Shown: piece after piece, positions 1 through 18,238 of the stretch
How positions within the stretch are numbered: position 1 is the stretch's first letter
Layout of the letters: every line of letters starts with the position of its first letter
From: Sphingopyxis alaskensis RB2256
GTDB lineage: Bacteria > Pseudomonadota > Alphaproteobacteria > Sphingomonadales > Sphingomonadaceae
Assembly: GCF_000013985.1 (NCBI RefSeq)
Contig: NC_008048.1
Span: 2,786,001-2,850,000 of the forward strand
Direction: 5' to 3'
Length of the DNA: 64,000 bases
Translations under genes and position numbers: made by a program
Notes under the pieces: model-generated
Told to the model about the DNA's origin: nothing
Seen by the model: the letters and a program-made list of their open reading frames with translations, nothing else
The model's database searches: none

Positions 1-2038
1 GGCCGTCGGCGAGCAACGCCTGCCAGGCTGCAAAGGGGCTTTCGTCTTCGTCCGAAGGCAAGAGTATCCGGTGACGGATGATCCCCTGTCGCCGGCCATA
101 GCGGTCGAGGCGGCCGATGCGCTGCTCGATCCGGGCAGCGCTCAGCGGCAGGTCGAGATGCACGATCGCATCGGAGAAACTGAGATTGAGACCTTCTTCG
201 GCCGTCCGGTCGCCGATGAGAACCGCAGCATCGGGCGCTTGCGCGAACGCCGCGACGCCGTCCTCCTTGTCATTGCCCGCGTCACCTCCCGAGACGAGTA
301 GAAAGCACGGTGTGTCGCCGAGCGCCTCCTCCAGCGCTCGATGGAACGCGGTTGCCAGCGCCTCAGCCGTCGCGAACACAACGATCTTGGGCTGATCGAC
401 GTCGGCCCGCAGCGTCTTGATTAGCCTCCGCACGCTTTCGACCATCGTTTCGATGCGGTCGGCATCGTCGTAGTCCTGGGCTTGCTCGCGCAGCGCGTCG
501 AGGATTTCCGCCTCGCCGGCGAAGATCGGCATGACACCAGTCAGCCAGGCGCGAAGAGCGTCAGCGCCTTCGGACACCGCGCCGAGAAGATTGCGGTAGC
601 GCGCGGCGAGAAGCGGCACCCCCGGATCGCCATCGACTAGCGAGTCGACCGCAGCCGACCGCCAGTCTTCAAGCGTGCCAAGCAGCACCGCCAGGTTGTC
701 GCTCGGATCGCCTTCGATGCGCACATGGGTCATGGCGCCGCCATCAGGTCCGCGTGGTCGAAACTCCCATCCCTGGGCATCGGCGCGACGCGAGCGGATC
801 AGACGCTGGTGGATGCGATAGCTGTCGGCGATATGCTCCTTGAGCGCGCCGCATAGGTCGACGAGTCGTTCGGGTGCCTCTCGCGTTGCCTCAATCAACT
901 GCGGCGCCAACTCTTGGACTACAGGATCGTCGGGAAAGCTACGGACTAGTTCAGCGCCGCGCTGGCGCAGCACAATGCCCGATGCGTCCGGGTCGAGACT
1001 AAGGAGCAAGCGGCCGATCGCCCGGCGCTGTTCGAGCTTCAGGCGAAAACCGTCAAGATCGTCGAGCGGATGGGTCAGCGGATCGAGCAAATTGAGCAGT
1101 GCCAGGAACCGAGCCTCCTCGCCAAGCGGCGGCGTTGCGGACAGCAGCAACAACACCGGCACGTCTCGGGCGAGCTCGCGCAACCGAGCCGCCGATGCTG
1201 AAAGCGGGCCGTCCTCGAGTCCAACCAGATGATGCGCTTCGTCGACCACCAGAACATCGGGTGTTCGCGCGACCCGCTCGATTTCGGCATGCGAGCAACA
1301 TTCGAAGGGCTCGCCGAACTGGTCGAGGCGGAGCTTTTCGGAAAGTTCGCGCCGCCACTGCTCGCACAGCGCCGACGGGGTCGCGATCAGTACCTCGGTG
1401 TCGGGATTGTCGATCAGATGCTGGCGGATGATCAACCCGGCCTCGATTGTCTTGCCCAGCCCGACCTCGTCGGCGAGGAGATAGCGCTGGATCGGATCAC
1501 TGAGCACGCGGCGCACCGCTGCGACTTGGTGCGGCACGAAGTCGATCCCGGCCGAGAGCAGCGACGTCAGACCTTGAGCCGCACTGGTCAGCGATCGCAG
1601 CGGCGTCAGCGCGGCTTGCCGGCGGTCGTGCAGATACTGGCTTTCGGCGGCGCCGGCCGCGAGCATTTCGGCCGGATCCTCGGGCGCATTCCACGGCCGG
1701 ACGAATAGGTCGATCTCGCTGAAGTCTTTTTGCTTCCCGTTGGGGAAGCGGACCTCATAAGTGACAAGGCCATTTTCCTGCTGAAGATAGTCGCTGATGC
1801 GACCGACCCGCATACGCCCGTCGTCGAGAACATAGGCCCGGGTCTGCGGGCTCAAATAGGCGCGGACGACCGCGCTCACCTCGCACTCGATATCTTCGCT
1901 GCGCTGGATCGAGTGGAAGATCGAGACGACGCAGCGGCCCTCGGCCGCAGATTGCAGCTTCCCGACGCCCTTTTGCCCGGGCAATTCGACGAGCATCCCC
2001 CTGAACAGACCCGTATCCCTCGATGGGCGATTCCCCAC
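1..2038 (-). CDS. dpdE: DpdE-like SNF2/RapA-type helicase (3' part missing)
   Basis: A superfamily 2 SNF2-type helicase whose C-terminus lies beyond the left edge; about 679 residues are visible. Reading the minus strand gives a Walker A region LADEVGLGKTIEAG near residue 186, a DEAH box in VVDEAHH near 262, and helicase motifs V-VI (EEGLNLSF, IGRLDRYGR) near 620-650. These are RapA-like. It lies 62 bp downstream of queC in the same direction, so it is probably DpdE, a restriction-side component of the 7-deazaguanine DNA modification system. The start is uncertain: GTG at 2038 is the longest choice after an in-frame stop, and ATG at 1996 gives MLVELPG. The family call rests on motifs plus context. 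Confidence 0.8.
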   Translation of the reverse strand, partial: MGNRPSRDTGLFRGMLVELPGQKGVGKLQSAAEGRCVVSIFHSIQRSEDIECEVSAVVRAYLSPQTRAYVLDDGRMRVGRISDYLQQENGLVTYEVRFPNGKQKDFSEIDLFVRPWNAPEDPAEMLAAGAAESQYLHDRRQAALTPLRSLTSAAQGLTSLLSAGIDFVPHQVAAVRRVLSDPIQRYLLADEVGLGKTIEAGLIIRQHLIDNPDTEVLIATPSALCEQWRRELSEKLRLDQFGEPFECCSHAEIERVARTPDVLVVDEAHHLVGLEDGPLSASAARLRELARDVPVLLLLSATPPLGEEARFLALLNLLDPLTHPLDDLDGFRLKLEQRRAIGRLLLSLDPDASGIVLRQRGAELVRSFPDDPVVQELAPQLIEATREAPERLVDLCGALKEHIADSYRIHQRLIRSRRADAQGWEFRPRGPDGGAMTHVRIEGDPSDNLAVLLGTLEDWRSAAVDSLVDGDPGVPLLAARYRNLLGAVSEGADALRAWLTGVMPIFAGEAEILDALREQAQDYDDADRIETMVESVRRLIKTLRADVDQPKIVVFATAEALATAFHRALEEALGDTPCFLLVSGGDAGNDKEDGVAAFAQAPDAAVLIGDRTAEEGLNLSFSDAIVHLDLPLSAARIEQRIGRLDRYGRRQGIIRHRILLPSDEDESPFAAWQALLADG

Positions 2039-2100: not shown

Positions 2101-2811
2101 CTACTCGTCCAAACTGCTCCGATGTTCTTGCCAGCCCTTCATGCGCAATTCGCAAGCCGGACAGGTGCCACAGCCGTAGCCCCAGTCCTGCAAGCGATCG
2201 TGGTCGCCACGATAGCAAGTATGAGTGCCGGTGCGGATGAGGTCGACCAGTTTCTCGCCACCCAGTATTTTTGCCAGACCCCAGGTCTGCGCCTTATCGA
2301 GCCACATCAACGGCGTGTGGACGACCGAGCGGCTGCCAATACCGAGGTTGAGCGTGACTTGGAGCGATTTGAGCGTATCGTCGCGGCAATCGGGATAGCC
2401 CGAATAGTCGGTCTCGCACATGCCGCCGACGAGATGCCGCAGTTCGCGGCGTGAGGCGAGCGCAGCGGCGAGCGTAAAGAACAACAGATTGCGACCGGGC
2501 ACGAAGGTGTTGGGCAAGCCATCGGCGCGCAGCGCGATCTCGGCATCGCGGGTGAGCGCGGTCTCGCTGACCTGGCCCAGCACCGAGAGGTCGAGCTTGT
2601 GATCCGGCCCGAGCCGCGCGGCCCATGCCGGATTCAATTCAACAATGCGCGCACGAAAATCGTCGCGGCATTCGAGTTCGACGCGGTGACGCTGGCCATA
2701 GTCGAACCCGACGGTCTCGACGGTCTCGAACCGGTCCAATGCCCAGGCAAGACAAGTGGCGCTGTCCTGCCCACCAGAGAAAAGGACGAGCGCGCCAGCG
2801 TCGCCGGTCAT
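2101..2811 (-). CDS. queC: 7-cyano-7-deazaguanine synthase QueC
   Basis: It converts 7-carboxy-7-deazaguanine to preQ0 using ATP and ammonia, in the cytosol. The 236-residue product opens with the PP-loop SGGQDSA and ends with the zinc cysteines of the family (THTCYRG, then CGTCPAC). Length and motifs are normal. ATG at 2811 is preferred over an upstream ATG because it overlaps the queD stop by four bases (ATGA), as elsewhere in this operon. Its place directly after queE and queD, beside dpdA, indicates that it supplies preQ0 for DNA insertion. It may also serve tRNA queuosine. Confidence 0.95.
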
Positions 2812-3182
2812 GCCGCGACTTCCTCGCCCCAATAGGTGCAGGCGTCGCCGCTGCTGTCGCGGTAGACGCTGACCTTGAACAGATTGTCGAGTTCGGGCGA
2901 GAGCCGGTTCCAGATCCAGCGGCTGAGATTTTCCATCGTGGCGGGGCCGAGGTCGTTGATCTCGTCGAGGAAGCGATGATCGAGCGCATCGCGGGCATCT
3001 TCCATCGAGCGCTCGAGCAGGCCGAGATCGACGATCATCCCAGTCGCGGGATCGGGCCGCCCGCGCACGGTCACCTCGGCACGGTAGCTGTGGCCGTGGA
3101 TGCGGCGGCTCGATTCGGTATCGATCGACCGTTCCAGCGTGTGGGCGGCATCGAAACGAAATTGCTTGCTGAGCTCAAACAT
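2808..3182 (-). CDS. queD: 6-carboxytetrahydropterin synthase QueD
   Basis: It converts 7,8-dihydroneopterin triphosphate to 6-carboxy-tetrahydropterin, the first committed step to preQ0. The 124-residue protein shows the zinc histidines of FRFDAAH and HGHSY, the LDHRFL segment and a C-terminal CTYWGEE. The chosen ATG at 3182 shares one base with the queE stop (TGATG). In E. coli QueD a catalytic Cys lies just before the HGH motif; here the sequence is SSRRIHGHS with no Cys there. This is probably a trait of the alphaproteobacterial subfamily rather than a defect, but I cannot verify that here. No folE is visible in the window. Confidence 0.93.
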
Positions 3183-3814
3183 CAGCGGATCCCGATCATC
3201 TTGTGCGACTGGAGCGAGAGGCGCCAGCGCGGGTTCTGGGTGCAATAGGTGATCGCAGCCTCGAGATTGGCGGCGGCGGTCGGCGAATCCATCGGCTGCA
3301 GGAAAAAGTGCTCGAAGGCGAGATGCTCGAACCGCTCGGGCGCCGCCTTCTCCTGCGGGTAGACAAGCTTGAGTTCATTACCTGCAAGTAGCACCAGTTC
3401 GGCATCGGCCTTGGGGCTGACGCAGATCCAGTCGAGCCCCCGCGGCGCGGGTTGTGTGCCATTGGTCTCTATAGCGATTTCGAAACCGCGCGTGTGCAAC
3501 GCGTCGACCAGGTCCTGGTCGACCTGGAGCAGCGGCTCGCCGCCGGTCAGCACGACGTAGCGATCGGCCCGAGCGCCAGCCCATTCGGACTCGATCGCGT
3601 CGGCTAGGGCTTGGTCGTCGGCGAAGCGCCCGCCGCCGCTCCCGTCCATGCCGACAAAGTCGGTATCGCAGAACGTGCAGACCGATGTTGTGCGGTCGCC
3701 CTCGCGTCCTGACCATAGATTGCATCCGGCGAACCGGCAGAACACCGCCGCACGCCCCATCTGGGCGCCTTCACCCTGCAGCGTCTTGAAGATCTCCTTG
3801 ACCGCGTAGCTCAT
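3182..3814 (-). CDS. queE: 7-carboxy-7-deazaguanine synthase QueE (radical SAM)
   Basis: A radical SAM enzyme that contracts the pterin ring to 7-carboxy-7-deazaguanine. The 210-residue product begins with the family signature IFKTLQGEG. It carries the QueE-type expanded cluster motif C-x14-C-x2-C (ending SVCTFCDTDF), then the SAM-binding TGGEPLLQ and ETNGTQ. The gene overlaps the upstream DGQQR gene by four bases (ATGA, 3811-3814) and queD by one base, so the preQ0 genes are translationally chained to the DNA modification genes. Confidence 0.95.
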   Translation of the reverse strand: MSYAVKEIFKTLQGEGAQMGRAAVFCRFAGCNLWSGREGDRTTSVCTFCDTDFVGMDGSGGGRFADDQALADAIESEWAGARADRYVVLTGGEPLLQVDQDLVDALHTRGFEIAIETNGTQPAPRGLDWICVSPKADAELVLLAGNELKLVYPQEKAAPERFEHLAFEHFFLQPMDSPTAAANLEAAITYCTQNPRWRLSLQSHKMIGIR

Positions 3815-4917
3815 GATCTATCGGCCGTGGGTTCAAGGAGCGGCGCCGGCGCCCGCTTGGCCTTCTTGCGCAGGTCCGCCTTCACGATGCCCACCAGATA
3901 ATGTTTGAGCAGCGCGACATCGCGGTTGACGTTCTGCAAGCCATTCCACCGCCGGACCTCGCCATCCATATGCCACTCGCCAGCGGTCCAGGCGGTCTTG
4001 TCCTTAAGGCATTCCATCCCGGTTCTGAAATCCTCGACCGTCCGCGCCTCCCCGCGCTCGGCGAGCACTTCCATGACGTCGCCCATGGCCTGGATGCCGG
4101 CGCCGTGCAGCAGGCGAGAGGTATTTGGCTTCTGGCCGTGCCACGCCTCGGGCCAGACCTTCTTCACTGCGTCGAAGAAATTTGACATCAGCCGCACACA
4201 GCGTTCCTCGCCCTTCGCACCCCGGATCAGCTCGCGCATCACCCCGTTGCTGAGCGACTCCATGATGATCTTCTGCATCACCGTGTCGGCGATGATGCCC
4301 TCGGGACAGGTATGCTGCTTGATATAGCCCTTGAGCGCGGTGTTCTCGAAGTTGAGCCGCGCCGTCAGATCGGAGGCGACCGACCGCCGGCTGAGCCGCG
4401 GTGGCAGATCGCCGACGGTCGGCAGCAGCTCGTAGATCAGCGACTTGGGCAGCGGCTTGGTATTGTTGATGAGCACGAATTGGCGGCGGAGTTCCGCCTC
4501 GTCGCGGCAGATCAGCGCCGAGACGAAGACCTGGAAGTCGCGGTCGAGATCGGCAAGCGCCGACAAACGCTGCTGGCCGTCCACCACCAATCCGGGAACG
4601 CTGCTGCTCATGTCAATCGCCAACTGCACGGCGCCATTCCCGAGGTCCTCAACGCTGACGCGATCGGTAAAGGCGACGACGATCGGGTTGGGCAACACTG
4701 CGTCGGGCTTCTCGAGATAGTCGCGGATCTCGCGGATATGGGCGGCGACTTGCGGCCGCTGGAACCCGCTGAGCTCGCCCTGGGCGTCTCGGCCGATCCG
4801 GTCGATAGCCGCAAAGCGCAGCACGTCCGCGGCTTTTGCCGCGAAGCTGAGCACTTTGTGCTCACTGCTCTGCTGCGCACAGACGGCGAGGTAGGTCATC
4901 ACTTGGTTCAACGGCAC
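3811..4917 (-). CDS. dpdB: DpdB-type DGQQR-domain protein, copy 1
   Basis: A 368-residue DGQHR/DndB-like protein of the ParB-like nuclease superfamily. The signature VVDGQQRLSAL places DGQQR at residues 113-117, preceded by GFQRPQV at 51-57. DpdB is required, with DpdA, to place preQ0 in DNA; its biochemical role (ATPase or DNA-handling partner) is only partly understood. The start overlaps the 3' end of dpdA. ATG 4917 overlaps it by 56 bases, and ATG 4899 (MTYLAV) would reduce this to 38. A second, divergent DGQQR protein lies on the other side of dpdA, so the pair may act as a heteromer or divide roles. Confidence 0.82.
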   Translation of the reverse strand: MPLNQVMTYLAVCAQQSSEHKVLSFAAKAADVLRFAAIDRIGRDAQGELSGFQRPQVAAHIREIRDYLEKPDAVLPNPIVVAFTDRVSVEDLGNGAVQLAIDMSSSVPGLVVDGQQRLSALADLDRDFQVFVSALICRDEAELRRQFVLINNTKPLPKSLIYELLPTVGDLPPRLSRRSVASDLTARLNFENTALKGYIKQHTCPEGIIADTVMQKIIMESLSNGVMRELIRGAKGEERCVRLMSNFFDAVKKVWPEAWHGQKPNTSRLLHGAGIQAMGDVMEVLAERGEARTVEDFRTGMECLKDKTAWTAGEWHMDGEVRRWNGLQNVNRDVALLKHYLVGIVKADLRKKAKRAPAPLLEPTADRS

Positions 4918-6193
4918 GCTTCAAATCCAGTCGTTCGATATGATCTTGGTAGACCGCGAGATTGTGAATCCCGCGGCGCTTGTTGCGATTGCTTCCGCGA
5001 AAGATGATCACATCGATCGCGGCATCCCGGCAGATTTTGCAGGAACATTGCTTCCATGGCCGCTCGGCAAGCGTCGTACGATAGCGCTCGGCCAGGCGCG
5101 CCAGCGACGGGCTCGCGGCGCAGTCCTCGTAAGGCTTTTCCTCGACCAAAGGCGCACTGTAGACGAGCACGTGATGCAGCGTCTCTTCGAGCCCGGCTTC
5201 ATCCCGGTCGAACGCGCGCAATGAGCCCAGCGCCAACGCCTCGAGCCGGACCAATTCCTCGGCCCGGAACATACCCTTCTTGACCGCGCGCTGGAGCTTG
5301 GGGTTTTCGATCGCCTGCGGCACCCGGATCGAGGTGAAGTAGCGCAGCGCCAACCCGTCGCCCGGCAGATAATAGTTCTGCTTCGCGTCCTTGAACGCGC
5401 GAATGAGGGGTGACGTCGTGTCGAAGCTTGAAATGTCGTAGCCGTGGAAGCTGTCGATATCGTCGGCCTTGGCAAAGCCGAGGATGTGGAGGCGTGTCGA
5501 TGCGGGCACCGTGTCGCGGATCGCTTCCAAACATAACTTGATCTCGGGCGACTTGAGCGGAACCATGCCGCCGAGTGCCAGGTAGTCATAGCCCATGGCG
5601 ACCAGCCGACGCGCCGCCTCGGCCATGCTGCCGGGCGACCAGCCCTGGATCACGCCCATCGGGGTGAAGCCCGCGTCCATCACTTTGGCCTCGCGCAGGA
5701 ATCCCTCGGCGTTCTCTAGCGTGATGTCGAAGCGCTGTCGGGCGTCGGTCGACCCGCCAGCCAGCCCCGCGAGGCCGGCGTCGAAATCGAAGATGATATG
5801 GTCGACCGAGGCGCCATGGGTGAAGCCGCATTCGTCGTAGAATTCGGCCATTTCCACCGGCGTGTACGGCGGCTTCTCATCCTGCACATAAGTGAAGGCG
5901 CCGCAATCGCCGAAAATGTCGAGATGTGCGAACTCGGGCTTGTCGAGGCGCAGAAACTTGCGGGCCCCAACCAGGCGGAAGCGGCGCGCCTGGCTGGCCG
6001 TATATTTGCCCTTCACGCGGTGGTCGCCGACGATGCCGCGCGAGACCAGCACCCCGTCATAGGGCGCATAGCCGAGGATCTCGTGCGGATAGGCGTCATC
6101 CCAATATGGCTGGCGCTCGGCGGGGCTGCGATCGGCGATGAAGTCGAATGCAGGATCCACATAATCGAGGCTGTCAGCGAAGATGAACTTCAT
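4862..6193 (-). CDS. dpdA: DpdA, TGT-like DNA 7-deazaguanine transglycosylase
   Basis: A tRNA-guanine transglycosylase paralogue that exchanges guanine in DNA for preQ0. The 443-residue protein has GDCGAF at residues 95-100, the counterpart of the TGT active-site Asp segment. It also has the barrel motif LALGGMVPL and, near the C-terminus, the zinc site C-x-C-x2-C (CSCKIC) followed by a His in RRGIHN. The ATG at 6193 overlaps the upstream stop by four bases (ATGA), which rules out the longer open frame upstream. Flanking DGQQR genes and adjacent queC, queD and queE distinguish it from housekeeping tgt. It is the core enzyme of the cluster. Confidence 0.9.
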   Translation of the reverse strand: MKFIFADSLDYVDPAFDFIADRSPAERQPYWDDAYPHEILGYAPYDGVLVSRGIVGDHRVKGKYTASQARRFRLVGARKFLRLDKPEFAHLDIFGDCGAFTYVQDEKPPYTPVEMAEFYDECGFTHGASVDHIIFDFDAGLAGLAGGSTDARQRFDITLENAEGFLREAKVMDAGFTPMGVIQGWSPGSMAEAARRLVAMGYDYLALGGMVPLKSPEIKLCLEAIRDTVPASTRLHILGFAKADDIDSFHGYDISSFDTTSPLIRAFKDAKQNYYLPGDGLALRYFTSIRVPQAIENPKLQRAVKKGMFRAEELVRLEALALGSLRAFDRDEAGLEETLHHVLVYSAPLVEEKPYEDCAASPSLARLAERYRTTLAERPWKQCSCKICRDAAIDVIIFRGSNRNKRRGIHNLAVYQDHIERLDLKRAVEPSDDLPRRLCAAEQ

Positions 6194-7311
6194 GCTGCCG
6201 CCCGCGCGAGATCGCGCTCGATGTGCACCAGATGATCGCTGAGCTTGGTGATGTGCTGCGAGGTCGACTGGATTTCGTTCCAGGCAAGGCCGAGGCCCTC
6301 CCATGTGCCGGCGGTCCAGCAGCACAAGGGCGCGATGCGCTTGAGCATCGTGCGCACCGCCGCCACCTTGTCCGGCGCCGCATCGGCGCGCAGCATGATC
6401 GTATCCATCAACGCGCCCATCGCGCGGATGCCGGCGGAGTGCATCAGTCGGCTGTCGGCCGGTGGCTTGCCCCAGGCCTCTGGAAAGGTGTCGCGGACCG
6501 CCGACCAGTAGAGGAGAAGCGCATCGTACATGGCGACCGTGTCGTTGCCGTCACCATTATGCTTGAATTGGCCGAGCGCCCCGGCTGGGGTCTTGAGGCT
6601 CGCCTTCATCGTTTCAATGAGCGCATTGTCGGTGACGATGCCGGCACGGTCCTTCGCATCGGACTCGCGCTTGATCAGGCCGAAGAAGGGCGAATTCGGA
6701 TCGGTGTTGAGCGCTTCGCACAGCGCGCTCGGCAACCGGCGTGCCGCCAGATCGCGCGGCAGCAACACGCTCACCTCGGGCAGCAGTTCGTTGATCAGCC
6801 GGGTCGGCAGCGGCCGCGCCTTGTTGACCAGGATGAACTGCTCGCGCTGCGTCTCGAGCGCATCCGACACGAACCCGACCACCGGTACGGCGATCGTTCG
6901 GTCCTTGGCGGCGCTCAGCGCCAGCGAGCGCTGCTGCCCATCGACGATCCAGGCGGCGCGCCGGCCCTCGGGATAGATCGGTATCGACAGCGTGCCCGCA
7001 TCCCCCACTTCGCACATATTGCCCGGCGAGCGGCCACGCGCCGAGGCGAACTCCACTTCGGGCGAGATGGCAAGGATGATCGCATTGGGAAACAGCACCG
7101 GGCCGCTGTCGAGAAAGGCCGTGATCTCCTTAACGTGATCGCGGATCTCGCGGCGTTGGAAGCCCTTAAGCTCCTGATCGTCGCGGCGGATCCGGCTGAT
7201 ATCCGCCACCCGGTTGATATCGGCGCCATAGAGGAAGAACGCAAAGACACTGGTCCCGCCGGCCTGCTCGGCGCGCACCGCGCGGACCTTGAGAGTTTCG
7301 CGTCCGCTCAT
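6190..7311 (-). CDS. dpdB: DpdB-type DGQQR-domain protein, copy 2
   Basis: A 373-residue protein of the same DGQHR family as the gene at 3811-4917. WIVDGQQRSLAL puts DGQQR at 124-128, with a preceding GFQRREI, and a shared NELLP segment lies in the middle. The two copies are similar in length and architecture, but by eye the sequences are clearly diverged, so this is not a recent duplication. It overlaps dpdA by four bases downstream and the YaaA-like gene by four bases upstream. The known role of the family is an accessory to DpdA in inserting preQ0 into DNA. Why two are kept is unknown. Confidence 0.8.
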   Translation of the reverse strand: MSGRETLKVRAVRAEQAGGTSVFAFFLYGADINRVADISRIRRDDQELKGFQRREIRDHVKEITAFLDSGPVLFPNAIILAISPEVEFASARGRSPGNMCEVGDAGTLSIPIYPEGRRAAWIVDGQQRSLALSAAKDRTIAVPVVGFVSDALETQREQFILVNKARPLPTRLINELLPEVSVLLPRDLAARRLPSALCEALNTDPNSPFFGLIKRESDAKDRAGIVTDNALIETMKASLKTPAGALGQFKHNGDGNDTVAMYDALLLYWSAVRDTFPEAWGKPPADSRLMHSAGIRAMGALMDTIMLRADAAPDKVAAVRTMLKRIAPLCCWTAGTWEGLGLAWNEIQSTSQHITKLSDHLVHIERDLARAAA

Positions 7312-8231
7312 GCGCGCTCACTCCGCACCTGGCGGGCCAATTCCGCGAACCGGCCCTGCTCGCACGCGATCCCGAGATCGTCGCGGAAGCGGCGCAGCAG
7401 CCGCGAGGAACTGCCGCGCTCGGCATCCCAATGCGCCCGGATCAGATCAAGCAGCGCTGCGTCATCATGGCGGATGCGGTCCACCTTGGCCGGCATCCGC
7501 CAACCGTCCAGCGTCGCCGACACCTCCGCGGCGTGCTCGGCCGCCGAACGTCCTTGCGGCTCGCCGCGCGTCAGTTCTGCGAAATGGCGAAGCGCCCGGC
7601 CGGCAAAATCGCTGCGCGTGCCGCGATTGCAGCTGTCCGGACCATCGAGCCGGTCGTCATAGGGCATGACGAAGGGCTGTAGTGCGGCAGGAACGCGATC
7701 GAGGCGCGCGCGGGTAAAGAGCCTGAGCCGACCGAGCATCGATGTTGGAAGGGCGAGAAGATCCTCCGCGATCATCTCGATATAGGCGTCTGACAGTGCC
7801 GCGCAGATCAGCCCGTGCGCGCCCTCGACCGCATCATGTAGCGTGACCGCAAAAGGAGAGACCTTGCACAGCGCCTCCCACCAGCGCTCGACGCTGAACG
7901 CGCCGGTTACGCGCGAGCGGACGCTGTCCGGGGCGTCGACGAGCACGGTGCAGGCATAGGGCGGAACCGCTGTCGAAACGTCGATCAGGCCAAGACCCGC
8001 GGAGACGACCAGCAGTCTTGCGTCGAGTAATTCCGCCGCGGTGACGGCTTCGCGAAAGCCGCGACCGCCGTAAATGTCTTCCCCGGGGAACCGCGTCGGC
8101 TCAGCCGCCAGGCGTTGCGACCATTGACGGGCCAGACCATCGAAGTCGGCTGGCGGGAGGGCGGCCATGTGAAGAGCGTCGGAAACCGGCTTGCGCTTGC
8201 GATTCGTACAGGTGGTGATCACGAGCGTCAC
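7308..8231 (-). CDS. YaaA/DUF6884-like protein, candidate DpdC
   Basis: First gene of the dpd operon, 307 residues. The N-terminus TTCTNRKRK and the stretch IYGGRGF then LLVVSAGLGLID resemble YaaA/DUF6884-type proteins, which typically carry a C-x-x-x-K start and an LSAKHGLL-like loop. In described Dpd clusters DpdC is a YaaA-related protein needed to convert inserted preQ0 to the amido form. I infer this gene is its counterpart but cannot show orthology. The called start is GTG 8231; GTG 8222 (VITTCTNR) is an alternative that fits the nearby TATAAT better. It overlaps the next gene by ATGA. Confidence 0.6.
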   Translation of the reverse strand: MTLVITTCTNRKRKPVSDALHMAALPPADFDGLARQWSQRLAAEPTRFPGEDIYGGRGFREAVTAAELLDARLLVVSAGLGLIDVSTAVPPYACTVLVDAPDSVRSRVTGAFSVERWWEALCKVSPFAVTLHDAVEGAHGLICAALSDAYIEMIAEDLLALPTSMLGRLRLFTRARLDRVPAALQPFVMPYDDRLDGPDSCNRGTRSDFAGRALRHFAELTRGEPQGRSAAEHAAEVSATLDGWRMPAKVDRIRHDDAALLDLIRAHWDAERGSSSRLLRRFRDDLGIACEQGRFAELARQVRSERA

Positions 8232-8345
8232 TAATTATAGGCCCCCTATCCGCATTAGCGCATGCATTAATCCATAACGATGGATCGCACGTTTTGCCAC
8301 ATTTAATGCACGAAATCATATCGAACGTTTTGCCAGTAAATGCGC
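8232..8345 (-). promoter_or_regulatory. dpd operon promoter region with direct repeats
   Basis: An AT-rich stretch upstream of the first dpd gene. On the minus strand TATAAT lies at 8239-8234, so close to the GTG start that the message would be leaderless or nearly so. Two 16-base direct repeats, TGGCAAAACGTKCGAT (8335-8320 and 8299-8284), are offset by 36 bp. An imperfect palindrome centred on GCATGC (8253-8270) covers the expected -35. These look like regulator sites; their function is inferred. Positions 8346-8601 hold nothing I can identify. Confidence 0.45.
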
Positions 8346-8601
8346 GCTCCAGCGTCACGCACCGCGATACATAGCGCGCCGCGCGCGCCACATGATCGGC
8401 TAACCGCTGTTCGCGCTGCTGACGCTTAATGCGCGTTTCGGAAAGCGCGAACTGGCGACCCGAAATGGCACCGTTGGGTCGCCGGAGCCCGTGCCAAAGG
8501 TGGCGAAATGCGCTGGGATAGCGGGGCCTCTACGCTCAGTTCCATGCTGCGGATCGATGCTTGCCGGCTTTTCTATCCTGTGGGCCGCAATCGAGAAGGA
8601 T

Positions 8602-9534
8602 TTAATCGCGTCTTCGATTGCGAAAGTCCCAGACGCGGATGCCCATCTTGCGAGCCTTGTCGGCGAGATTGTCCTGGATGCCGGTGCCCGGAAACACGAT
8701 GACACCCCGCGGCATCTTCTCCAGCATGGCATCGTTGCGCTTGAACGGCGCGGCCTTCTTGTGCCGGTTCCAGTCGGGCCGGTAGGGATCCTGCGGCACA
8801 CCCCGGTCGCGCGCCCAGCAGGCGGCGATGCGTTCGGCGCCGGTCGGCGTCGCGCCGTGCATCAGGATCAGGTTCGGAAGCTGGGCGTGGACCTTGTCCA
8901 GCACGGCGTAGATGCGCTGATGGTCGTTGCAGTCGACGCCGCCGGTAAAGGCGATCCGCACGCCATCGGGATCGAAGACCCGTTGCTTCTCCCAGGCGCG
9001 CTTGCCGAGCGCCTTGCGGCTGTCGAGCACTGCAGAGGTCAGCGCCTTGTGGTTCACCATTGCGCCCGAACGCGGCAGCCAGGGCTTGCGGATATGGATG
9101 CGGAACTGGTCGGCGGCAGCATCGCGGAAAAACTCCATGGTGTCCCGGCGCTCGATCGTGGTGATGCCTTCGGCGATCTTGCGTTCCAACTCGACCGACT
9201 TCACCTCGCTGCCATCCTGTTCGCGCTGAAGCCGTTTCTGCGCTTGCTCATTGTCGTCGAGTTCGCGCTCGATCCGCTCGCCGGCGCGGTGGAAGACATT
9301 GACGATGCCCCAGGCGAGATCCTCAAGGTCGGGTTCGATCCGTGTGTCGATCAGGCACGAGACCAGCGCGTCGAACATCTCGGCGACCGCGCCGCCGGCG
9401 ATGCGGTCGTCCGGCAAGGGCCGATGATCGGGTTCATCCTCGAAGGGACGGCAGCCGTAAAGCTGCATTTCCTGAAGCAGGTAGGCGGTAGAGCCGGGCT
9501 GCGCTTCGTGTCCATCGTCCTGGTCGGTCGCCAT
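8602..9534 (-). CDS. DUF2493 (YspA/SLOG-like) domain protein
   Basis: A 310-residue protein whose C-terminal third carries the DUF2493 signature: IAFTGGVDCNDHQRI, then LILMHGATPTGAERIAACWA, then GVIVFPGTG near the end. This fold belongs to the SLOG superfamily of nucleotide- or ligand-binding Rossmann proteins. The N-terminal part is acidic and helical with a likely coiled coil around residues 85-125. The gene is a regular member of alphaproteobacterial ICE/plasmid backbones next to Toprim and strawberry notch genes, as here. Its role is unknown. ATG 9534 is supported by GGAG eight bases upstream. Confidence 0.8.
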   Translation of the reverse strand: MATDQDDGHEAQPGSTAYLLQEMQLYGCRPFEDEPDHRPLPDDRIAGGAVAEMFDALVSCLIDTRIEPDLEDLAWGIVNVFHRAGERIERELDDNEQAQKRLQREQDGSEVKSVELERKIAEGITTIERRDTMEFFRDAAADQFRIHIRKPWLPRSGAMVNHKALTSAVLDSRKALGKRAWEKQRVFDPDGVRIAFTGGVDCNDHQRIYAVLDKVHAQLPNLILMHGATPTGAERIAACWARDRGVPQDPYRPDWNRHKKAAPFKRNDAMLEKMPRGVIVFPGTGIQDNLADKARKMGIRVWDFRNRRRD

Positions 9535-9543
9535 CGAAAATCT

Positions 9544-9587
9544 CCGTGATCTGACAGCCGCGCCTCTCGCGGCCTTCGTGGCGACGG
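9544..9587 (-). promoter_or_regulatory. 5' leader hairpin with AGAGG loop (DUF2493 gene)
   Basis: Minus-strand leader hairpin GCCGCG-AGAGG-CGCGGC (9573-9568 / 9562-9557). It is enclosed by a weaker ACGG/CCGT pairing and followed by GGAG and the start codon at 9534. It matches hairpins before the parB-like and ardC genes. The rest of the 9535-9848 gap is GC-rich and shows no gene. Confidence 0.5.
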
Positions 9588-9848
9588 CAGGCGGCGGGCG
9601 GAGCGGGACAGAACCGCGGCCCTTGGGGCGCGGCCGGAGCGAAGCGGAGGATGGCGGGCGGGCGGCAATTTTGCTTCGCGATGCAAAGAACCGAAGGTTC
9701 GGCGGAAAATAGCCGCCCTTCCGCCATTGCCGTCCTGATCCGTTTGCCGCAGTCGCCCTCTACCGAAGGCACGAGCGCGCGGCGTCTCGAAGATGCCGGT
9801 GATGAGCGTGATCACCCGCGACTAGAGACGTTCCCCGCAGTCCAACCC

Positions 9849-10895
9849 TTACCCCTGCATCAGGAAGCGCTCCGCATCCTCCGTCCGGAGTTGATCCCGC
9901 AGCCTCTGGGTGAGCCGCTCCCGCCCGAAGGTGGTAAGATCGTCGTTGAAATCCCCAAGCCTGGGTTCGAGCGGCACCACCTCGATCCCCGCCGGGATCG
10001 CCCGCTCGGTGAGCGTCTTCAACGCCCCCGCACCGGCAGGATCGTCATCGCGTGCGACATAGAGCCGGCGCAGCATGGCCGGGAACAGAATGGCAGCGAG
10101 ATGCGCGGCCGAGAGCCCGGCGATCGCCGGCATCAGCGGCATGACCTGGCGCAGCGACAGCATGGTCTCGATGCCTTCGCCCGCCATCATGACGGGGCCA
10201 CCTGGCCCGAACCGGACGCCGTGTCCGAGCAGATAGCCCATGGCGCGGCGCGGATAGGCGACGGGAGCTTTGTCGGAGCTGCCCGGTTCCAGCCAGGTCC
10301 GATGAGCCCCGGTGACGCTGCCGTCGAGATCGGTGACCGCCGCGATCATCGCCGGCCATGCGGGACGCGTATCGGGTGCGTCGTCCTTCGACGCGCGATA
10401 CCAGCAGTTGCCGTGAAATCGGAGCGCCTCGCAGCCGGTGAGGTCGATGATTTGCCGGAATGCGAGATAGGCGGCGACGGGGCTTCCGGCGACTGGCTTC
10501 GCCGCTGCCCAGAGCCGCTGCGCTGCTTGCCGTGTGCCGGTCGGCGCCTTGCTGCGTCTAACCGGCTTATCCTCGGACGGCGGCGGTATGGGCAGGCGCA
10601 GAAAATGCCGGGCTTCGTCCAGCGTCTCGCGCATGGTCCGGCAGTTCCGGGTGATGGCGATGATGTCGAGCAGATCGCCATGATCGCCGCTCTGCGCATC
10701 GGTCCATTTGCCGGCTTGGCCGCGCCCGTCGGGGGACGCGGCCAGACGGACATAGAGGCTTCGCCCCGGCGTGTTGTGAACGTCGCCGACCAGCCAGTAG
10801 CGGCCTTCCCGGTGCCCGTTGGGCAGGTAGCGGCGACACACGCTCTCCGCATTCTCGGCGAGACGTTCGGCAATGATGGTTGCGGGGCTTTGCAT
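9849..10895 (-). CDS. Toprim domain protein (primase-like, mobile element)
   Basis: A 348-residue protein with a C-terminal Toprim fold. The catalytic Glu motif is MMAGEGIETMLSLRQ and the DxD motif is YVARDDDPAGAGAL, as in DnaG-type primases and plasmid primase-helicases. The N-terminal half (RRYLPNGHREGRYW, GKWTDAQSG) resembles the CHC2-like/DUF7146 region of plasmid primases, although a full zinc finger is not obvious. The ATG at 10895 has the Shine-Dalgarno TGAGGAG eight bases upstream. It lies 11 bp after the strawberry notch gene, so the two are co-transcribed. It probably acts in replication or transfer of the host element. Confidence 0.82.
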   Translation of the reverse strand: MQSPATIIAERLAENAESVCRRYLPNGHREGRYWLVGDVHNTPGRSLYVRLAASPDGRGQAGKWTDAQSGDHGDLLDIIAITRNCRTMRETLDEARHFLRLPIPPPSEDKPVRRSKAPTGTRQAAQRLWAAAKPVAGSPVAAYLAFRQIIDLTGCEALRFHGNCWYRASKDDAPDTRPAWPAMIAAVTDLDGSVTGAHRTWLEPGSSDKAPVAYPRRAMGYLLGHGVRFGPGGPVMMAGEGIETMLSLRQVMPLMPAIAGLSAAHLAAILFPAMLRRLYVARDDDPAGAGALKTLTERAIPAGIEVVPLEPRLGDFNDDLTTFGRERLTQRLRDQLRTEDAERFLMQG

Positions 10896-10906
10896 CGCGG
10901 GGCTCC

Positions 10907-13900
10907 TCAGGCGGCCTTGCGCATGGAGAGCCGTTCGATCGGATATCGCTCGAGCAGCCGGTCCAGCACATCGGCGCCGACAGCCCCTGCCGGCACGTAG
11001 AGCCTGAGTTTCCACGAGACGATCTCCGAAATCAAGCCCATGGCCTTGAGACGCTCGACACCCAGATCATTGAACCCGGTGATCTCGATCCGCCAGTGGT
11101 GCATGGCACGGACACGCTGGAGCTTCTGCTCCTGCGCCAGATGCAGCACGGCTTCGCCAGTCATGAGCATCGAAAGCGCTTCCTCGCCGGAGAGCCGTAC
11201 CGGACCATCGTCATTGGCGACGCTGGCCGCCCAAGCCGGAGATACGCGGCGACCGATGACACGCTCGCCATCATCGCTCTGGAGCCGATAAACGCGCGTC
11301 GACTCGTCGGGCAGTCGCTTCCATATCGGCAGCAGCAGGCCGGAAACCATGTGCAGCGTCGAAGTCTCGTGCGTCGGCAGTCCTGCCAGTTCCGCCTTCC
11401 ACGCCGCGCTGAACGTTTCGCGGCCTACCTCGTCCCACTGGCTCGCCAGCAGCGTTTCCGCCGGAACGATGCTATCGGTCAGCGGCCAGACCAAGCGCAG
11501 GCGCGGATGAACCGCGCCATCGTCATCGGTCACGCTGCGCGCCCGGCGCTGGACGGCGCCGCGGCCGGTCTTGCTGTTGACCAGCAGTTTCGCGCCTTTG
11601 CCATCGACCATGGCCAGCGCATCCTCGAGCGACAGCGGCGTCAACCGGTCCTTGCGCTCGATGGTCAGAAGCTGCGTCTGCGCGCCCGTGCCCGGATGGG
11701 TGTAGATCGGCATGCGGCCGACAATGCGGAAGCTTTCGGCCTGCAGGGTCTCCAGCCCGATTTCATAGCTGCCCGATGCCCGCGCCTGGTCGATCCGGGC
11801 GACAAGCAGGCCCTCGAACGCCTCGAACAGAAGGTTCTGCATCGCAACCGTGAGCGCGAGCATGCGGTTGAGGAAGGTGTTGATCCCCGGCAGCTCGTCC
11901 TTGAGGCCGCCGTCGCTGTCGAGAAGCGACAGGCCGGTCGCCGCTTCGAAGCGGGCGAGCGAACAGCCTTCGACCTTGCCGCGCGCGAGAAGGATATAGA
12001 GCTGGCGCAGCGCATCGCGGGCATACCAGCTTTCGAAATTGTCCTCGGGCCGGAACATGTTCTGCCCGCCGGTCTGGCGCTGGCCGCGGGTGATCGCGCC
12101 CAGAGAATCGAGGCGCCGGGCGATGGTCGAGATGAAGCGCTTCTGCGCCTTCACATCGGTCGATACCGGCCGAAACAGCGGCGGCTGCTTCTGATTGGTG
12201 CGGTTGGTGCGGCCGAACCCCTGGATCGCGGCGTCGGCTTTCCAGCCCGCTTCGAGCAGGTAATGGACGCGGCGGCGCTGGTTCGCGGCGCCAAGATCGG
12301 CATGATAGGATCGGCCCGTTCCACCGGCTTCGGAGAAGACGAGGATGCACTTGGCGTCATTCTGAAAGGCGTCGGTCTCGTGCAGCGCTGCCGACGCGGG
12401 ACGGTTCTCGACGGCAAAGCGGACCGAGCCGTCCTCATTGTGCCGGGGAACGACGCGGCGTGAACGCCCGGTGACTTCGGCCACCATGTCCGTCCCGAAA
12501 TGCTGGACGATCTGGTCGAGCGCGCCGGGAACGGGCGGGTGCGCGGCGAGCCGTTCGATCATCGCGTCGCGGCGACGCAGGGCCTCGCGATTGACGACCG
12601 GGTTGCCGTCCTCGTCATGGACCGGCCGGGACGAGAGATTGCCATCCCTATCGGTGAACGGCTCGTAGAGCTGCACCGGGAAGCTGTGCTGGAGGTAAGA
12701 CAGAACGCCGTCGCGCGGTGTGATGTCCACCGAGACGTCATTCCATTCATCGGCCGGGATTTCGGCGAGGCGGCGTTCCTGCAAGGCCTCGCCGGTCGAG
12801 ACGATCTGCACCACGGCCGCATGGCCTGCTTCCAGATCACGCTCGATGCTGGCGATGACGCTGGGCGTTTGCATGCTGGTGATGAGATGGTTGAAGAAGC
12901 GCTGGAGCATTCCCTGATAGGCGGATTTCGCGGCCGCCTTGGCCTGGCGGTTCAAGGTGCCGTGGCTCGCACTGGTGACGCCGGCGGCTTCGAGCGCGTC
13001 GTCGAGGTTGTTGTGGATCACCTCGAACGCCGACGCGAAACTGTCATAGATGCGAACCTGCTCGGTCGTGAGCTTGTGTTCGAGCATCTCATATTCGACG
13101 CCATTGAAGGATAGCGAGCGGGCGGCATAGAGGCCGAGGGCCTTCAGATCGCGGGCCAGAACCTCCATCGCCGCGACCCCGCCGTTCTCGATCGCGCTGA
13201 CGAATTCGCCGCGGGTCGCGAAGGGGAAATCCTCGCCACCCCACAGGCCAAGGCGCTGGGCATAAGCAAGGTTCTGCACCGTCGTCGCGCCGGTCGCCGA
13301 AACATAGACAATGCGGGCATCGGGCAGGGCATGCTGGAGCCGCAAGCCGGCACGGCCCTGCTGAGAGGGCGCGACATCCCCGCGCTCGCCCTTGCCGCCA
13401 GCGGCATTGGCCATGGCGTGCGCTTCATCGAACACGATCACGCCGTCGAAGTCCGGCCCCAGCCATTCGACAATCTGCTCGACCCGTGATTTCTTGCCGC
13501 CGCGTTCCTGCGAGCGGAGTGTGGCGTAGGTCGTAAATAGCACGCCCTCCTCGAGCCGAATGTCGCTGCCTTGGCGGAAGCGCGAGAGCGGCGTCACCAG
13601 GAGCCGCTCCTGCCCAAGCGCCGACCAGTCGCGCTGCGCATCTTCAAGCAGCCGGTCCGATACCGAGATCCAGACTGCGCGGCGACGACCCTTGAGCCAA
13701 TTGTCGAGAATGATGCCCGCGACCTGACGCCCCTTGCCCGCGCCGGTGCCGTCGCCCAGGAACCATCCGCGCCGGAATTCCACAGCGTCTTCGGCGTCCT
13801 CCGGCGCGGCGGTGACGACATCGAAGGTCGCGTCGACCTTCCATGCGCCCGACAGATGCCCCGAATGTGCTTCGCCCGCATAGATGACGGATTCGAGCTG

Positions 13901-15256
13901 GGCGTCGGACAATATGCCGAGCGTCACGAGCTGCGGCGGCAGATGCGGGCGGTAGGAGGGCTTGGGCGGCGCGACCGAAGCCATCGCCGCGGACTGAACC
14001 AATGGCGTCGGATGCGCGCTCGCAGAGGGGATCGCGATCGACTGGAGCGCATAGGGTTCGTAGATGCTGTCTCCTAGGCGTTCCGCGGGCGGCGTCCAGT
14101 CGACGATGTCATAGACCAGTTCGACCGCTTCCTGCTCCGGAGCTGAAGGGCTGGGGGCCGCAGCGACAGTGCGCGTATTCGTCCGCACAGGCGAGGCCGA
14201 TGCCGTGACCGGTAGGGCCGCGACCGGAGACGGTGTGGTGGGCGCACGGGGCGGAACCTGTGCCTGAACCCAGCCGAGCAGGGTCGCGGTATCCGGGGCA
14301 ACGCCCGCGCTCGGTGGGAAGATGCAGAGGTCTTCGGCCGGCAGCTTGTCGATTACGGTCAGACGGGTCTCGATCTTCGTGCCATGCTTCGCATAGACCC
14401 TGCCGTCGATCGCGGCGGTGAATACGATGCGCCCCGTCTCCTGCAACCGCGCGAAGGCGTCACGCCACGCTGGCGCATCGGGCGCGCAACTTGCCCCGGT
14501 GATCGCGACCAGGCGGCCGCCGGGCTCCAGCCGCGCGAGCGCTGAGGCGATATGGCGCAGCGCCGCGTCCTTCATAGTGCGCTCGACATGCGCGACCGCC
14601 GAGAAGGGCGGGTTCATCAGCACGACGCTCGGGCGGACGTCGGATGGCAGCCGGTCGTCGATCGAAGCGGCGTCATGGCCCGAGACCGGAACATCCGGAA
14701 ACAGCAGCCGCAGCAATTCCGCGCGGGTCTCGCCGAGCTCGTTAAGCGTGAGCCTCGCCCGCGCCAGCAGGCCGTGGACGGCGAGCATGCCGGTGCCGGC
14801 GGATGGCTCCAGCACCTGATCGCCGGGGCTGATCGAAGCCGCCACGCTGGCGACGAAAGCAAGGCCAGGCGGCGTCGAGAATTGTTGCAGAGCTTGAGAG
14901 CTTTCCGAGCGGCGGGTGTGCGTGGGCATCAAAGCGGCGATGCGCTCGATCAGCGCCAGCGCACTCGGTGCCGCGCGGCCGACAATTGCTTGGCCATAAC
15001 GGCGCAGGAACAGGATTTCGGCGGCCTCGCAGGCGTCGTAGGCGCTTTTCCAGTCCCAGGCGCCTTCGGAATCGCTCGCGCCAAAGGCGCCGGTCACGGC
15101 CAAACGGAGCTGTGCCGTATCAATGGCACGCCCGGCCTCGATTACGGGCAGGAGGCTGCGCGCGGCGGCCAGCAGGGCACAGGCACGCGCCGCAAAGCCG
15201 GATGCAGCCGCAAGGGGCGCGGCGCGAAGCGCCGCGTCGGAAAGGATGTGGGTCAT
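10907..15256 (-). CDS. Methyltransferase-strawberry notch helicase (DarB-like)
   Basis: A 1449-residue bifunctional protein. The N-terminal third is an adenine-type methyltransferase with SAM motif VLEPSAGTGMLAVHG and catalytic LMNPPFS. A Pro/Ala-rich linker follows. The C-terminal two thirds form a strawberry notch SF2 helicase: Walker A GDGTGAGKGRQ, box II VFDEAHAMANAA, the IQGFGRTNRTNQ motif, and SBNO C-terminal regions. The domain order recalls phage P1 DarB, which protects incoming DNA from restriction, so an anti-restriction or DNA-transfer role is plausible. ATG 15256 (MTHILSD) is chosen over the longer frame because GGAGACC precedes it and a leader hairpin would otherwise be coding. 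Confidence 0.88.
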   Translation of the reverse strand: MTHILSDAALRAAPLAAASGFAARACALLAAARSLLPVIEAGRAIDTAQLRLAVTGAFGASDSEGAWDWKSAYDACEAAEILFLRRYGQAIVGRAAPSALALIERIAALMPTHTRRSESSQALQQFSTPPGLAFVASVAASISPGDQVLEPSAGTGMLAVHGLLARARLTLNELGETRAELLRLLFPDVPVSGHDAASIDDRLPSDVRPSVVLMNPPFSAVAHVERTMKDAALRHIASALARLEPGGRLVAITGASCAPDAPAWRDAFARLQETGRIVFTAAIDGRVYAKHGTKIETRLTVIDKLPAEDLCIFPPSAGVAPDTATLLGWVQAQVPPRAPTTPSPVAALPVTASASPVRTNTRTVAAAPSPSAPEQEAVELVYDIVDWTPPAERLGDSIYEPYALQSIAIPSASAHPTPLVQSAAMASVAPPKPSYRPHLPPQLVTLGILSDAQLESVIYAGEAHSGHLSGAWKVDATFDVVTAAPEDAEDAVEFRRGWFLGDGTGAGKGRQVAGIILDNWLKGRRRAVWISVSDRLLEDAQRDWSALGQERLLVTPLSRFRQGSDIRLEEGVLFTTYATLRSQERGGKKSRVEQIVEWLGPDFDGVIVFDEAHAMANAAGGKGERGDVAPSQQGRAGLRLQHALPDARIVYVSATGATTVQNLAYAQRLGLWGGEDFPFATRGEFVSAIENGGVAAMEVLARDLKALGLYAARSLSFNGVEYEMLEHKLTTEQVRIYDSFASAFEVIHNNLDDALEAAGVTSASHGTLNRQAKAAAKSAYQGMLQRFFNHLITSMQTPSVIASIERDLEAGHAAVVQIVSTGEALQERRLAEIPADEWNDVSVDITPRDGVLSYLQHSFPVQLYEPFTDRDGNLSSRPVHDEDGNPVVNREALRRRDAMIERLAAHPPVPGALDQIVQHFGTDMVAEVTGRSRRVVPRHNEDGSVRFAVENRPASAALHETDAFQNDAKCILVFSEAGGTGRSYHADLGAANQRRRVHYLLEAGWKADAAIQGFGRTNRTNQKQPPLFRPVSTDVKAQKRFISTIARRLDSLGAITRGQRQTGGQNMFRPEDNFESWYARDALRQLYILLARGKVEGCSLARFEAATGLSLLDSDGGLKDELPGINTFLNRMLALTVAMQNLLFEAFEGLLVARIDQARASGSYEIGLETLQAESFRIVGRMPIYTHPGTGAQTQLLTIERKDRLTPLSLEDALAMVDGKGAKLLVNSKTGRGAVQRRARSVTDDDGAVHPRLRLVWPLTDSIVPAETLLASQWDEVGRETFSAAWKAELAGLPTHETSTLHMVSGLLLPIWKRLPDESTRVYRLQSDDGERVIGRRVSPAWAASVANDDGPVRLSGEEALSMLMTGEAVLHLAQEQKLQRVRAMHHWRIEITGFNDLGVERLKAMGLISEIVSWKLRLYVPAGAVGADVLDRLLERYPIERLSMRKAA

Positions 15257-15270
15257 GAGTGGAGGTCTCC

Positions 15271-15310
15271 GGGAGAGCGGGAACAGGTGAAGCCCGCCGG
15301 ATGCTCTCCC
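15271..15310 (-). promoter_or_regulatory. 5' leader hairpin of strawberry notch gene
   Basis: A perfect 8-bp stem on the minus strand (GGGAGAGC 15310-15303 with GCTCTCCC 15278-15271) encloses an inner GCGGG/CCCGC stem. It is followed directly by GGAGACC and the ATG. A second hairpin with a GTCAGG/CCTGAC stem and GAGAGT in its loop lies just upstream (about 15340-15365). It resembles, but is not identical to, the AGAG-loop leaders of neighbouring genes. Confidence 0.45.
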
Positions 15311-15548
15311 TTTTGAGGCCCGGCCGGGTTCCCCCTCCCGGTCAGGACTCTCCCTCTTACCTGACGCATTCTCGATGCCGAGCGTTTGCAACCGCGCCAG
15401 TTGCGGAGAGGAAATCAAGTCGATGGAATTTGCATGGACTGGTGCAGGCCGCCCCGGATGCTTACATCATAAGGCAAGGAAATCTGGGCGATTGCACGCG
15501 TTCATTGACTGCTAAGGCCTATCGGCTAGAATGGCGGCGGAGCAAAAC

Positions 15549-15737
15549 ATGCAGCATATTGGCCGTTACAGCTTCTCGGATCATCAGCGTGCGAAGGAAG
15601 CTTCGCGCGCAAGGGATGAGTCTGACCTGCGTAATGGCCATGTTTCGCGCGAAGAACTGCGAGCGGCCAATGGTGTTTTTTCTTCGCTCGATATTGCGGC
15701 GTCATCCATCCGCCGCCGGCGTCTGATTGGCCGCTGA
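15549..15737 (+). CDS. Small basic protein coupled to nucleotidyltransferase gene
   Basis: A 62-residue protein starting MQHIGRYSFS, rich in charged residues, ending in the basic tail SSIRRRRLIGR. ATG 15549 is chosen because GGAG lies six bases upstream; an in-frame ATG at 15531 has no such site. The gene overlaps the following nucleotidyltransferase-like gene by 11 bases, which suggests translational coupling. I do not recognise the family. Its size, charge and position before a possible toxin suggest an antitoxin or DNA-binding partner, which is an inference. The pair is plus-strand, opposite to most genes of the island, and looks like an inserted cassette. Confidence 0.55.
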   Translation: MQHIGRYSFSDHQRAKEASRARDESDLRNGHVSREELRAANGVFSSLDIAASSIRRRRLIGR

Positions 15738-16506: not shown

Positions 16507-16543
16507 TCAATCGCTTGCGCTTCGGGAGGTCGCCGAGGCGCGC

Positions 16544-16759
16544 TCAGGCGGGCGGGATATAGGCTTCGTAGGGGTTGCCGGGAGCGAGATGACCGAACGG
16601 CGTCATCACATAGTCGCCTTCATCGCGGCCCACGGCGCAGATTACAAAGCGGGTCTCGCCGCTTTCCACCTCGGTGCATTCCATCAGCGCCAGATCGCCC
16701 GCCTTGGCAGCTTTCACCAGCGTCTCGAAATTGGCGCGGGCGTAATCAGGGATTGCCAT
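16544..16759 (-). CDS. DUF6117 family protein
   Basis: A 71-residue protein starting MAIPDYARANFETLVKAA and ending NPYEAYIPPA, the pattern of the DUF6117 family found on alphaproteobacterial mobile elements. It has no catalytic motif and no membrane segment. It overlaps the 3' end of the upstream gene (16746) by 14 bases and is part of the leftward run 16544-18473. Function unknown. Confidence 0.72.
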   Translation of the reverse strand: MAIPDYARANFETLVKAAKAGDLALMECTEVESGETRFVICAVGRDEGDYVMTPFGHLAPGNPYEAYIPPA

Positions 16760-17267: not shown

Positions 17268-17347
17268 CTGGCTCCTTGATATGTTTTGCCCCCCGGCGAT
17301 GGGCGCCGAGGGCGGTGGTTTGTTTGACAATGTGCGGTTGCCGTTTG

Positions 17348-17713: not shown

Positions 17714-17723
17714 CATCGCCTCC

Positions 17724-18191: not shown

Positions 18192-18210
18192 TGCGGATCT
18201 CCTGAAAGGC

Positions 18211-18238
18211 AAAAGCCCGACGCGGAGGTCGGGCTTTT
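18211..18238 (-). terminator. Terminator-like leader hairpin
   Basis: A perfect 11-bp stem AAAAGCCCGAC/GTCGGGCTTTT with a six-base loop, 20 bp upstream of the start at 18191. On the minus strand the 3' arm ends in TTTT, so it could terminate or attenuate read-through into the DUF6878 gene. The following TTTCAGGAG is shared with the hairpin at 18494-18518. Confidence 0.6.

Follow-up and report, generated by a model that had tools for sequence, protein, structure and literature searches.

Two diverged dpdB genes flank dpdA in a dpd operon of Sphingopyxis alaskensis: a possible division of labor between enzyme partner and autoregulator

We analyzed a stretch of 64,000 nucleotides from Sphingopyxis alaskensis RB2256 (NC_008048.1, positions 2,786,001 to 2,850,000; hereafter the window) that carries a dpd operon in which dpdA lies between two genes of the DpdB family, dpdB1 and dpdB2. 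The roles of DpdA, DpdB and DpdC are taken here from the literature; DpdB is an ill-understood part of the machine that places 7-deazaguanines in DNA. In order from the first gene of the operon, the window contains:

7308..8231, minus strand: dpdC, which opens the operon, 307 residues from a GTG start (PADLOC DpdC PDLC02815, 441.6 bits)
6190..7311, minus strand: dpdB1, 373 residues, with DGQQR at residues 124-128 (window 6928-6942), of the B1 clade (NF041060, 457.2 bits)
4862..6193, minus strand: dpdA, 443 residues, the enzyme of 7-cyano-7-deazaguanine (preQ0) insertion into DNA, similar to tRNA-guanine transglycosylases (NF041059, 547.6 bits)
3811..4917, minus strand: dpdB2, 368 residues from a GTG start, with DGQQR at residues 113-117 (window 4567-4581) (NF041060, 384.2 bits)
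3182..3814, minus strand: queE, 7-carboxy-7-deazaguanine synthase of the Cx14CxxC type (TIGR04508, 359 bits; cut-off 240)
2808..3182, minus strand: queD, 6-carboxytetrahydropterin synthase family (PF01242, 111.5 bits; below NCBIfam QueD cut-offs)
2101..2811, minus strand: queC, 7-cyano-7-deazaguanine synthase (PF06508, 221.2 bits; TIGR00364, 195.8 bits, cut-off 150.3)
1..2038, minus strand: 5' part of dpdE, an SNF2 helicase gene that continues past the left edge of the window

Consecutive genes overlap from dpdC through queC, by 4 bp at both dpdC/dpdB1 and dpdB1/dpdA and by 56 bp at dpdB2/dpdA when counted from the dpdB2 GTG, and are probably co-transcribed. The true start of dpdB2 may be the ATG at 4899, which gives a protein of 362 residues. 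Beyond the window, the same genome continues after dpdE (PADLOC DpdE, 1341 bits; L004 862-4038) with dpdF, G, H, a gene in the dpdI position, J, K and D (L003, L004). A restriction set dpdD-K thus accompanies dpdA, B and C: PADLOC matched D, E, F, G, H and K, the protein in the DpdJ position was identified solely by comparison with annotated enteric DpdJ, and the protein in the dpdI position matched no PADLOC family. The operon may well form the modifying side of a restriction-modification island of the Dpd type (7-deazaguanine in DNA), whose two-DpdB subtype is mainly alphaproteobacterial.

An earlier sequence-only reading had placed dpdA between two diverged genes of one family, both with an intact DGQQR; coordinates and motif residues were exactly as claimed. 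Both proteins passed the 300-bit cut-off of the DpdB equivalog model NF041060 (the cut-off of the DpdA model, NF041059, is 200 bits) and matched PADLOC DpdB PDLC02811 with 457.7 (B1) and 426.2 bits (B2), and several public records annotate both as DpdB. They are 33% identical to each other across 377 columns (E ~3e-48), DGQQR was invariant in alignments of 15, 48 and 47 sequences, and both genes adjoin and overlap dpdA. The Pfam DndB family PF14072 matched B2 at 55.4 and B1 at 49.4 bits (gathering cut-off 29.1), and these were the only two matches in the host genome; the family is also present in enteric DpdB and does not single out DndB. A search of Protein Data Bank sequences with B1, the only copy searched, gave no match, and the predicted models of DpdB1 and DpdB2 appear to resemble the repressor KorB. 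KorB of plasmid RK2 and Noc/ParB, which are ParB-type CTPases, are among the closest known systems. One source cites DpdB as an ATPase that acts with DpdA yet is dispensable in some clusters (PMC12839542).

Phylogenetic analyses resolved the two copies into separate clades. In a tree of 180 sequences that included close copies, B1 (48 sequences) and B2 (48 sequences) were each monophyletic (support of 0.999 and 1.0, respectively), and a 70-sequence tree with an outgroup gave ultrafast bootstrap values of 97 for B1, 100 for B2 together with an orphan from Variovorax, and 91 for B2 without it. Hence hidden Markov model and tree placed both copies inside the DpdB family and away from unrelated DGQHR proteins, as the sequence-only reading had proposed to check. 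The Variovorax orphan groups as sister to B2 by sequence. In the 70-sequence tree the root among B1, B2 and single DpdB was not resolved: FastTree grouped B2 with the singles (0.64), while IQ-TREE grouped B1 with B2 (68) and did not keep the singles together. Mean identity to single DpdB (0.365 for B1, 0.373 for B2) did not decide which copy is closer. Forty-three columns shared one residue across B1, B2 and single DpdB (95% or more within each group), and 26 were fixed differently (at least 85%) between B1 and B2. The latter include LVNK in B1 versus LINN in B2 (LVNS in the singles), columns that by our own reading may correspond to the ParB phosphate motif. Pairwise omega values of 0.02-0.13 (B1) and 0.04-0.19 (B2) indicate purifying selection on both; the omega, column and mirror-tree analyses were run on loci other than L059-L062. 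Two readings of the pair were discarded: the NF041060 scores and the clades speak against an unrelated DGQHR protein as one member, and the intact frames and low omega against a pseudogene or decaying duplicate.

The arrangement is not an oddity of the window but a lineage subtype and the rule among the alphaproteobacterial loci that we saw. After identical and near-identical copies were dropped, 35 of 39 alphaproteobacterial dpdA loci showed the order dpdC-dpdB1-dpdA-dpdB2, and so did one genome outside the class (G862). Some of the loci kept are close relatives (e.g., L007/L051 and L021/L024/L025) and the counts are not independent. Dropped were near-identical or same loci (L005, which repeats the window's operon, L022, L043, L045 and L047), pieces or records without the start of a dpd operon (L001-L003 and L054-L058), and loci without a dpdC of the operon type and a DpdB beside dpdA (L037-L042); L027 and L046 are one locus with a broken dpdA, which was scored apart from the operator counts below. 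A DpdA search of the GTDB genome collection returned 24 loci, 22 of them with the two-DpdB order (the exceptions were L026 and L027). Alphaproteobacterial plasmid records with DpdA had two DpdB in nine of 11 cases and none in two, where the stretch holds dpdC-dpdA (Acetobacter pasteurianus, L031 5140-7359; Methylorubrum extorquens AM1, L035 5147-7341).

Taxon-wide samples gave a similar picture. A DpdB match (E 1e-40) was found in 9 of 397 genomes of the window's family, eight with two copies flanking dpdA and the ninth being the L027 locus. Across the phylum, three of 398 genomes exceeded the DpdB cut-off, namely the window's own (two copies), G862 (two) and G930 (one, of the enteric type); G952 had a partial match below it. 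In a class-wide DpdA search the window's own genome was the only one of 385 over the cut-off, G862 was the sole match among 125 genomes of its family, and two IMG/VR scans with DpdA, limited in reach to close relatives, gave no match. In E. coli, the enteric dpdC-A-B region was matched in 161 of 5,426 genomes (159 across at least 80% of the region); among the matches listed, dpdA and DpdB were annotated in 19 of 20, with one DpdB in both regions opened. The expectation of the sequence-only reading that Dpd clusters generally carry one DpdB therefore held for the enteric loci seen and failed for the alphaproteobacterial ones, where most clusters have two. Extra copies as such are already known: a 2025 preprint on GATOR-GC ranks dpdB first among dpd genes in additional copies (n=801; 2,335 unique windows; PMC11888242), and in the portion of its text available to us neither the arrangement nor the clades nor an operator is described. 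The literature searched, which was other than the founding Dpd papers and partly available in excerpt, likewise held no description of a two-DpdB arrangement or a dpd operator. What appears to be new is the two-DpdB order as the subtype of a whole lineage, with its two clades and its upstream array of sites. Among the records dropped, L043 (MT835580.1, labelled Bacteriophage sp.) holds a dpd operon whose match scores equal those of L019 (Sphingomonas parapaucimobilis) and is possibly a mislabelled bacterial contig.

Upstream of dpdC we identified an operator-like array of short sites:

8426..8432, no strand assigned: distal half-site TTAATGC, at -201 from the dpdC start
8337..8343, no strand assigned: operator half-site TAAATGC (site 1), at -112
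8299..8309, no strand assigned: operator dyad ACATTTAATGC (site 2), at -78/-74, of the form RCATTWAATGY
8264..8270, no strand assigned: operator half-site GCATTAA (site 3), at -39

Five of the six RCATTWA/TWAATGY half-sites in the window fall at 8264-8432. The spaced pair CATTWA-N24-34-CATTWA occurs once in the 3.37-Mb genome, upstream of dpdC (control, 0), and the dyad RCATTWAATGY in two places, one of them upstream of dpdC (reversed control pattern, 1). Sphingomonadales-type two-DpdB loci had at least one RCATTWA-type site in 23 of 23 cases and at least two in 21 of 23, at a mean density of 2.74 per 250 bp versus 0.018 elsewhere. The divergent two-DpdB loci (n=13) carried a one-base variant, RCAGTTW (mean 2.46 versus 0.053; at least two sites in 11 of 13), and L019 carried both the T and the G type. 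Within 200 bp, 35 of all 36 two-DpdB loci had at least one site and 33 had at least two, compared with two or more sites in 10 of 3,420 null windows and in 27 of 3,909 overlapping AT-rich null windows (step 50). The patterns were written after most of the upstream regions counted had been viewed. Unseen when they were fixed were L059, L061 and L062 (G type), all three of which had at least two sites, and L027/L046 (T type). None of five comparison loci (two enteric-type singles, two without DpdB, and L026) had a site, nor did L063 or L064, both enteric.

Loss of one copy, seen at two loci, bears on which protein reads the array. In L026 (Novacetimonas maltaceti) the array is absent, and what is left of DpdB1, with dpdC and dpdA intact on either side, is a short frame (9645-10001) matching its final ~110 residues; DpdB2 is intact too. 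Conversely, L027 (Sandaracinobacteroides hominis) kept the array and DpdB1, lost DpdB2 and has a broken dpdA. Each pattern is seen in one locus. The idea of the sequence-only reading that one copy is a cofactor and the other a regulator gains support from the array and these two losses; how the roles are split is our own inference. A host regulator could instead read the array, with DpdB1 as a second cofactor or a redundant copy. The array is operator-like by its sequence, which leaves room for such a regulator, but we regard this as improbable: operator type goes with the dpd lineage and not with host taxonomy, the host genome has no second copy of the spaced array, and the array is missing where DpdB1 is missing. 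The columns that separate T- from G-type loci did not point to B1.

Co-variation within the operon links DpdB2 to DpdA. Distances over 29 loci correlated at r 0.984 for B2-DpdA, 0.939 for B1-DpdC and 0.896 for B1-DpdA, so that B1 tracks DpdC above DpdA although dpdB1 overlaps dpdA. Tree distances over 32 loci gave 0.988 for A-B2 and 0.924 for A-B1 (bootstrap 95% interval of the difference, 0.025-0.134), and the interval of r(C,B1)-r(C,B2) was -0.001 to 0.061. Once B2 was accounted for, the partial r of B1 and DpdA fell to 0.15; that of B1 and DpdC was 0.59-0.60 given DpdA or B2. The pattern is due in part to recombination: in L023, similarity to the window steps up at the dpdB1/dpdA border, and in L049 dpdC-dpdB1 is less similar to the window than dpdA-dpdB2. 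At the least, these comparisons show that DpdA and DpdB2 tend to be co-inherited and that DpdB1 is separable from both. One could also read them as one DpdB per enzyme, with cassettes [dpdC-dpdB1] and [dpdA-dpdB2] and DpdB1 serving DpdC, for example by gating the conversion of inserted preQ0 (dPreQ0) to the 7-amido-7-deazaguanine nucleoside (dADG). The partial correlation of B1 and DpdC and the similar A-B2 but more diverged C-B1 of L049 and L023 fit such cassettes. A recombination breakpoint at dpdB1/dpdA would give the same pattern, however, and the difference between r(C,B1) and r(A,B1) has an interval that spans zero (-0.050 to 0.079). Moreover, L026, L031 and L035 keep dpdC without B1, as do enteric loci, and nothing connects a ParB-fold protein to the chemistry of DpdC. 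We consider this the least probable of the alternatives.

The main rival is a DpdB1-DpdB2 heteromer that partners DpdA, with both copies needed for insertion and the operator read by the heteromer or another protein. Both copies keep the family-invariant residues and are under purifying selection, both are retained in the 35 alphaproteobacterial loci, all the two-DpdB loci measured have dpdB1 overlapping dpdA and most also dpdB2, and no intact dpdA was found with B1 alone among the loci examined. Yet L026 pairs an intact dpdA and DpdB2 with a DpdB1 remnant, B1 co-varies with DpdA far less than B2 does, and enteric dpdA has one DpdB. In two Moritella-type genomes (G1690 and G1700; L065-L068) there are two dpdA each, ~10 and 22 kb apart, and every one has a DpdB of its own downstream, which fits a basic unit of A and then B. 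A strict heteromer is, on this evidence, a real but minority possibility.

We favor, with moderate confidence, a division of labor in which DpdB2 would be the partner of DpdA and DpdB1 an autoregulator that binds the operator. The first assignment is suggested by the close co-variation of DpdB2 with DpdA and by its downstream place, the same as that of the single DpdB of enteric loci; that DpdB1 is the protein that binds the array is inferred more weakly. QueE, QueD and QueC would make preQ0, DpdA would put it into DNA with the help of the ParB-fold DpdB2, and DpdC would convert dPreQ0 to dADG. DpdB1, keeping fold and motif, would act mainly as a nucleoside triphosphate (NTP)-sensing autoregulator like DndB or KorB, binding the RCAKTWA-type sites before dpdC and limiting expression of the mostly overlapping genes. 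If DpdB1 bound both array and enzyme it would couple expression to activity, and division of labor and heteromer are not exclusive.

The enteric Dpd system, as seen in E. coli (dpdC-dpdA-dpdB plus dpdD-K), has the same enzymes with restriction genes alongside, and its DpdB overlaps the end of dpdA (L036, L063, L064) as in the window. It has one DpdB, downstream of dpdA, and no RCAKTWA array, whereas in the window another, diverged DpdB separates dpdC from dpdA and the array is present. According to the literature, Salmonella Montevideo has this same enteric system. DndB of phosphorothioate (Dnd) systems has PF14072 in common with the window's DpdB but sits with dndCDE, while the DpdB neighbors are dpdC, dpdA and queE/D/C. 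DndB regulates its own operon through promoter palindromes (PMC4507180). The DndB-type box TACG-N10-CGTA had no match upstream of 35 dpdC genes. If the proposed division is true, transcription of a Dpd system would have a defined operator, and, by the parallel with DndB, two DNA-modification systems with unrelated chemistry would both be regulated by ParB-fold proteins. Two-copy loci and natural single-copy losses let cofactor and regulatory roles be separated.

More speculatively, and with less conviction than for the division itself, the ancestral DpdB may have been both base-exchange cofactor and repressor of its own operon on an RCAGTTA-type operator. Such an operator is suggested by the palindrome ACAGTTA-N6-TAACTGT that is still seen, between queC and queE, in the Moritella-type set queE-dpdC-dpdA-dpdB with one DpdB. 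Duplication in Alphaproteobacteria would then have split the roles, B2 keeping DpdA and B1 the operator, later RCATTWA in the Sphingomonadales lineage. An array phased at ~28-39 bp would let DpdB1 act as an NTP-switched, ParB/KorB-like sensor of nucleotide or modification state.

DpdB-family genes also occur apart from dpdA. The B2-type orphan of the Variovorax sp. SRS16 plasmid (L042 6998-8565) is followed by a small DUF6884 protein and lies beside type I-E CRISPR genes; the nearest 7 kb hold no dpdA, and the same match occurs on three other Variovorax plasmids. Others without dpdA nearby are found in Nonomuraea (L040 7001-8107, beside dnaE) and Euzebya (L041 6989-8134, near DNA cytosine methyltransferase genes). 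Two cyanobacterial plasmids (L038 5069-6175 and L039 8149-9246) pair a long DpdA with a distant DGQHR/DndB-like gene that lies on the other strand. A Paenibacillus sp. 37 plasmid (L037) has dpdA near a second queuine tRNA-ribosyltransferase-like gene, queC/D/E and a VUT transporter gene, with no annotated DpdB in that stretch. In the window, positions 8602-23688 hold mobile-element-like genes (YAcAr/SLOG, Toprim, a strawberry-notch helicase and an ArdC-type anti-restriction protein), among them a 713-residue protein with a weak ParB_N match. They end at a tRNA-Gly gene (23614-23688), where the island may have its attachment site.

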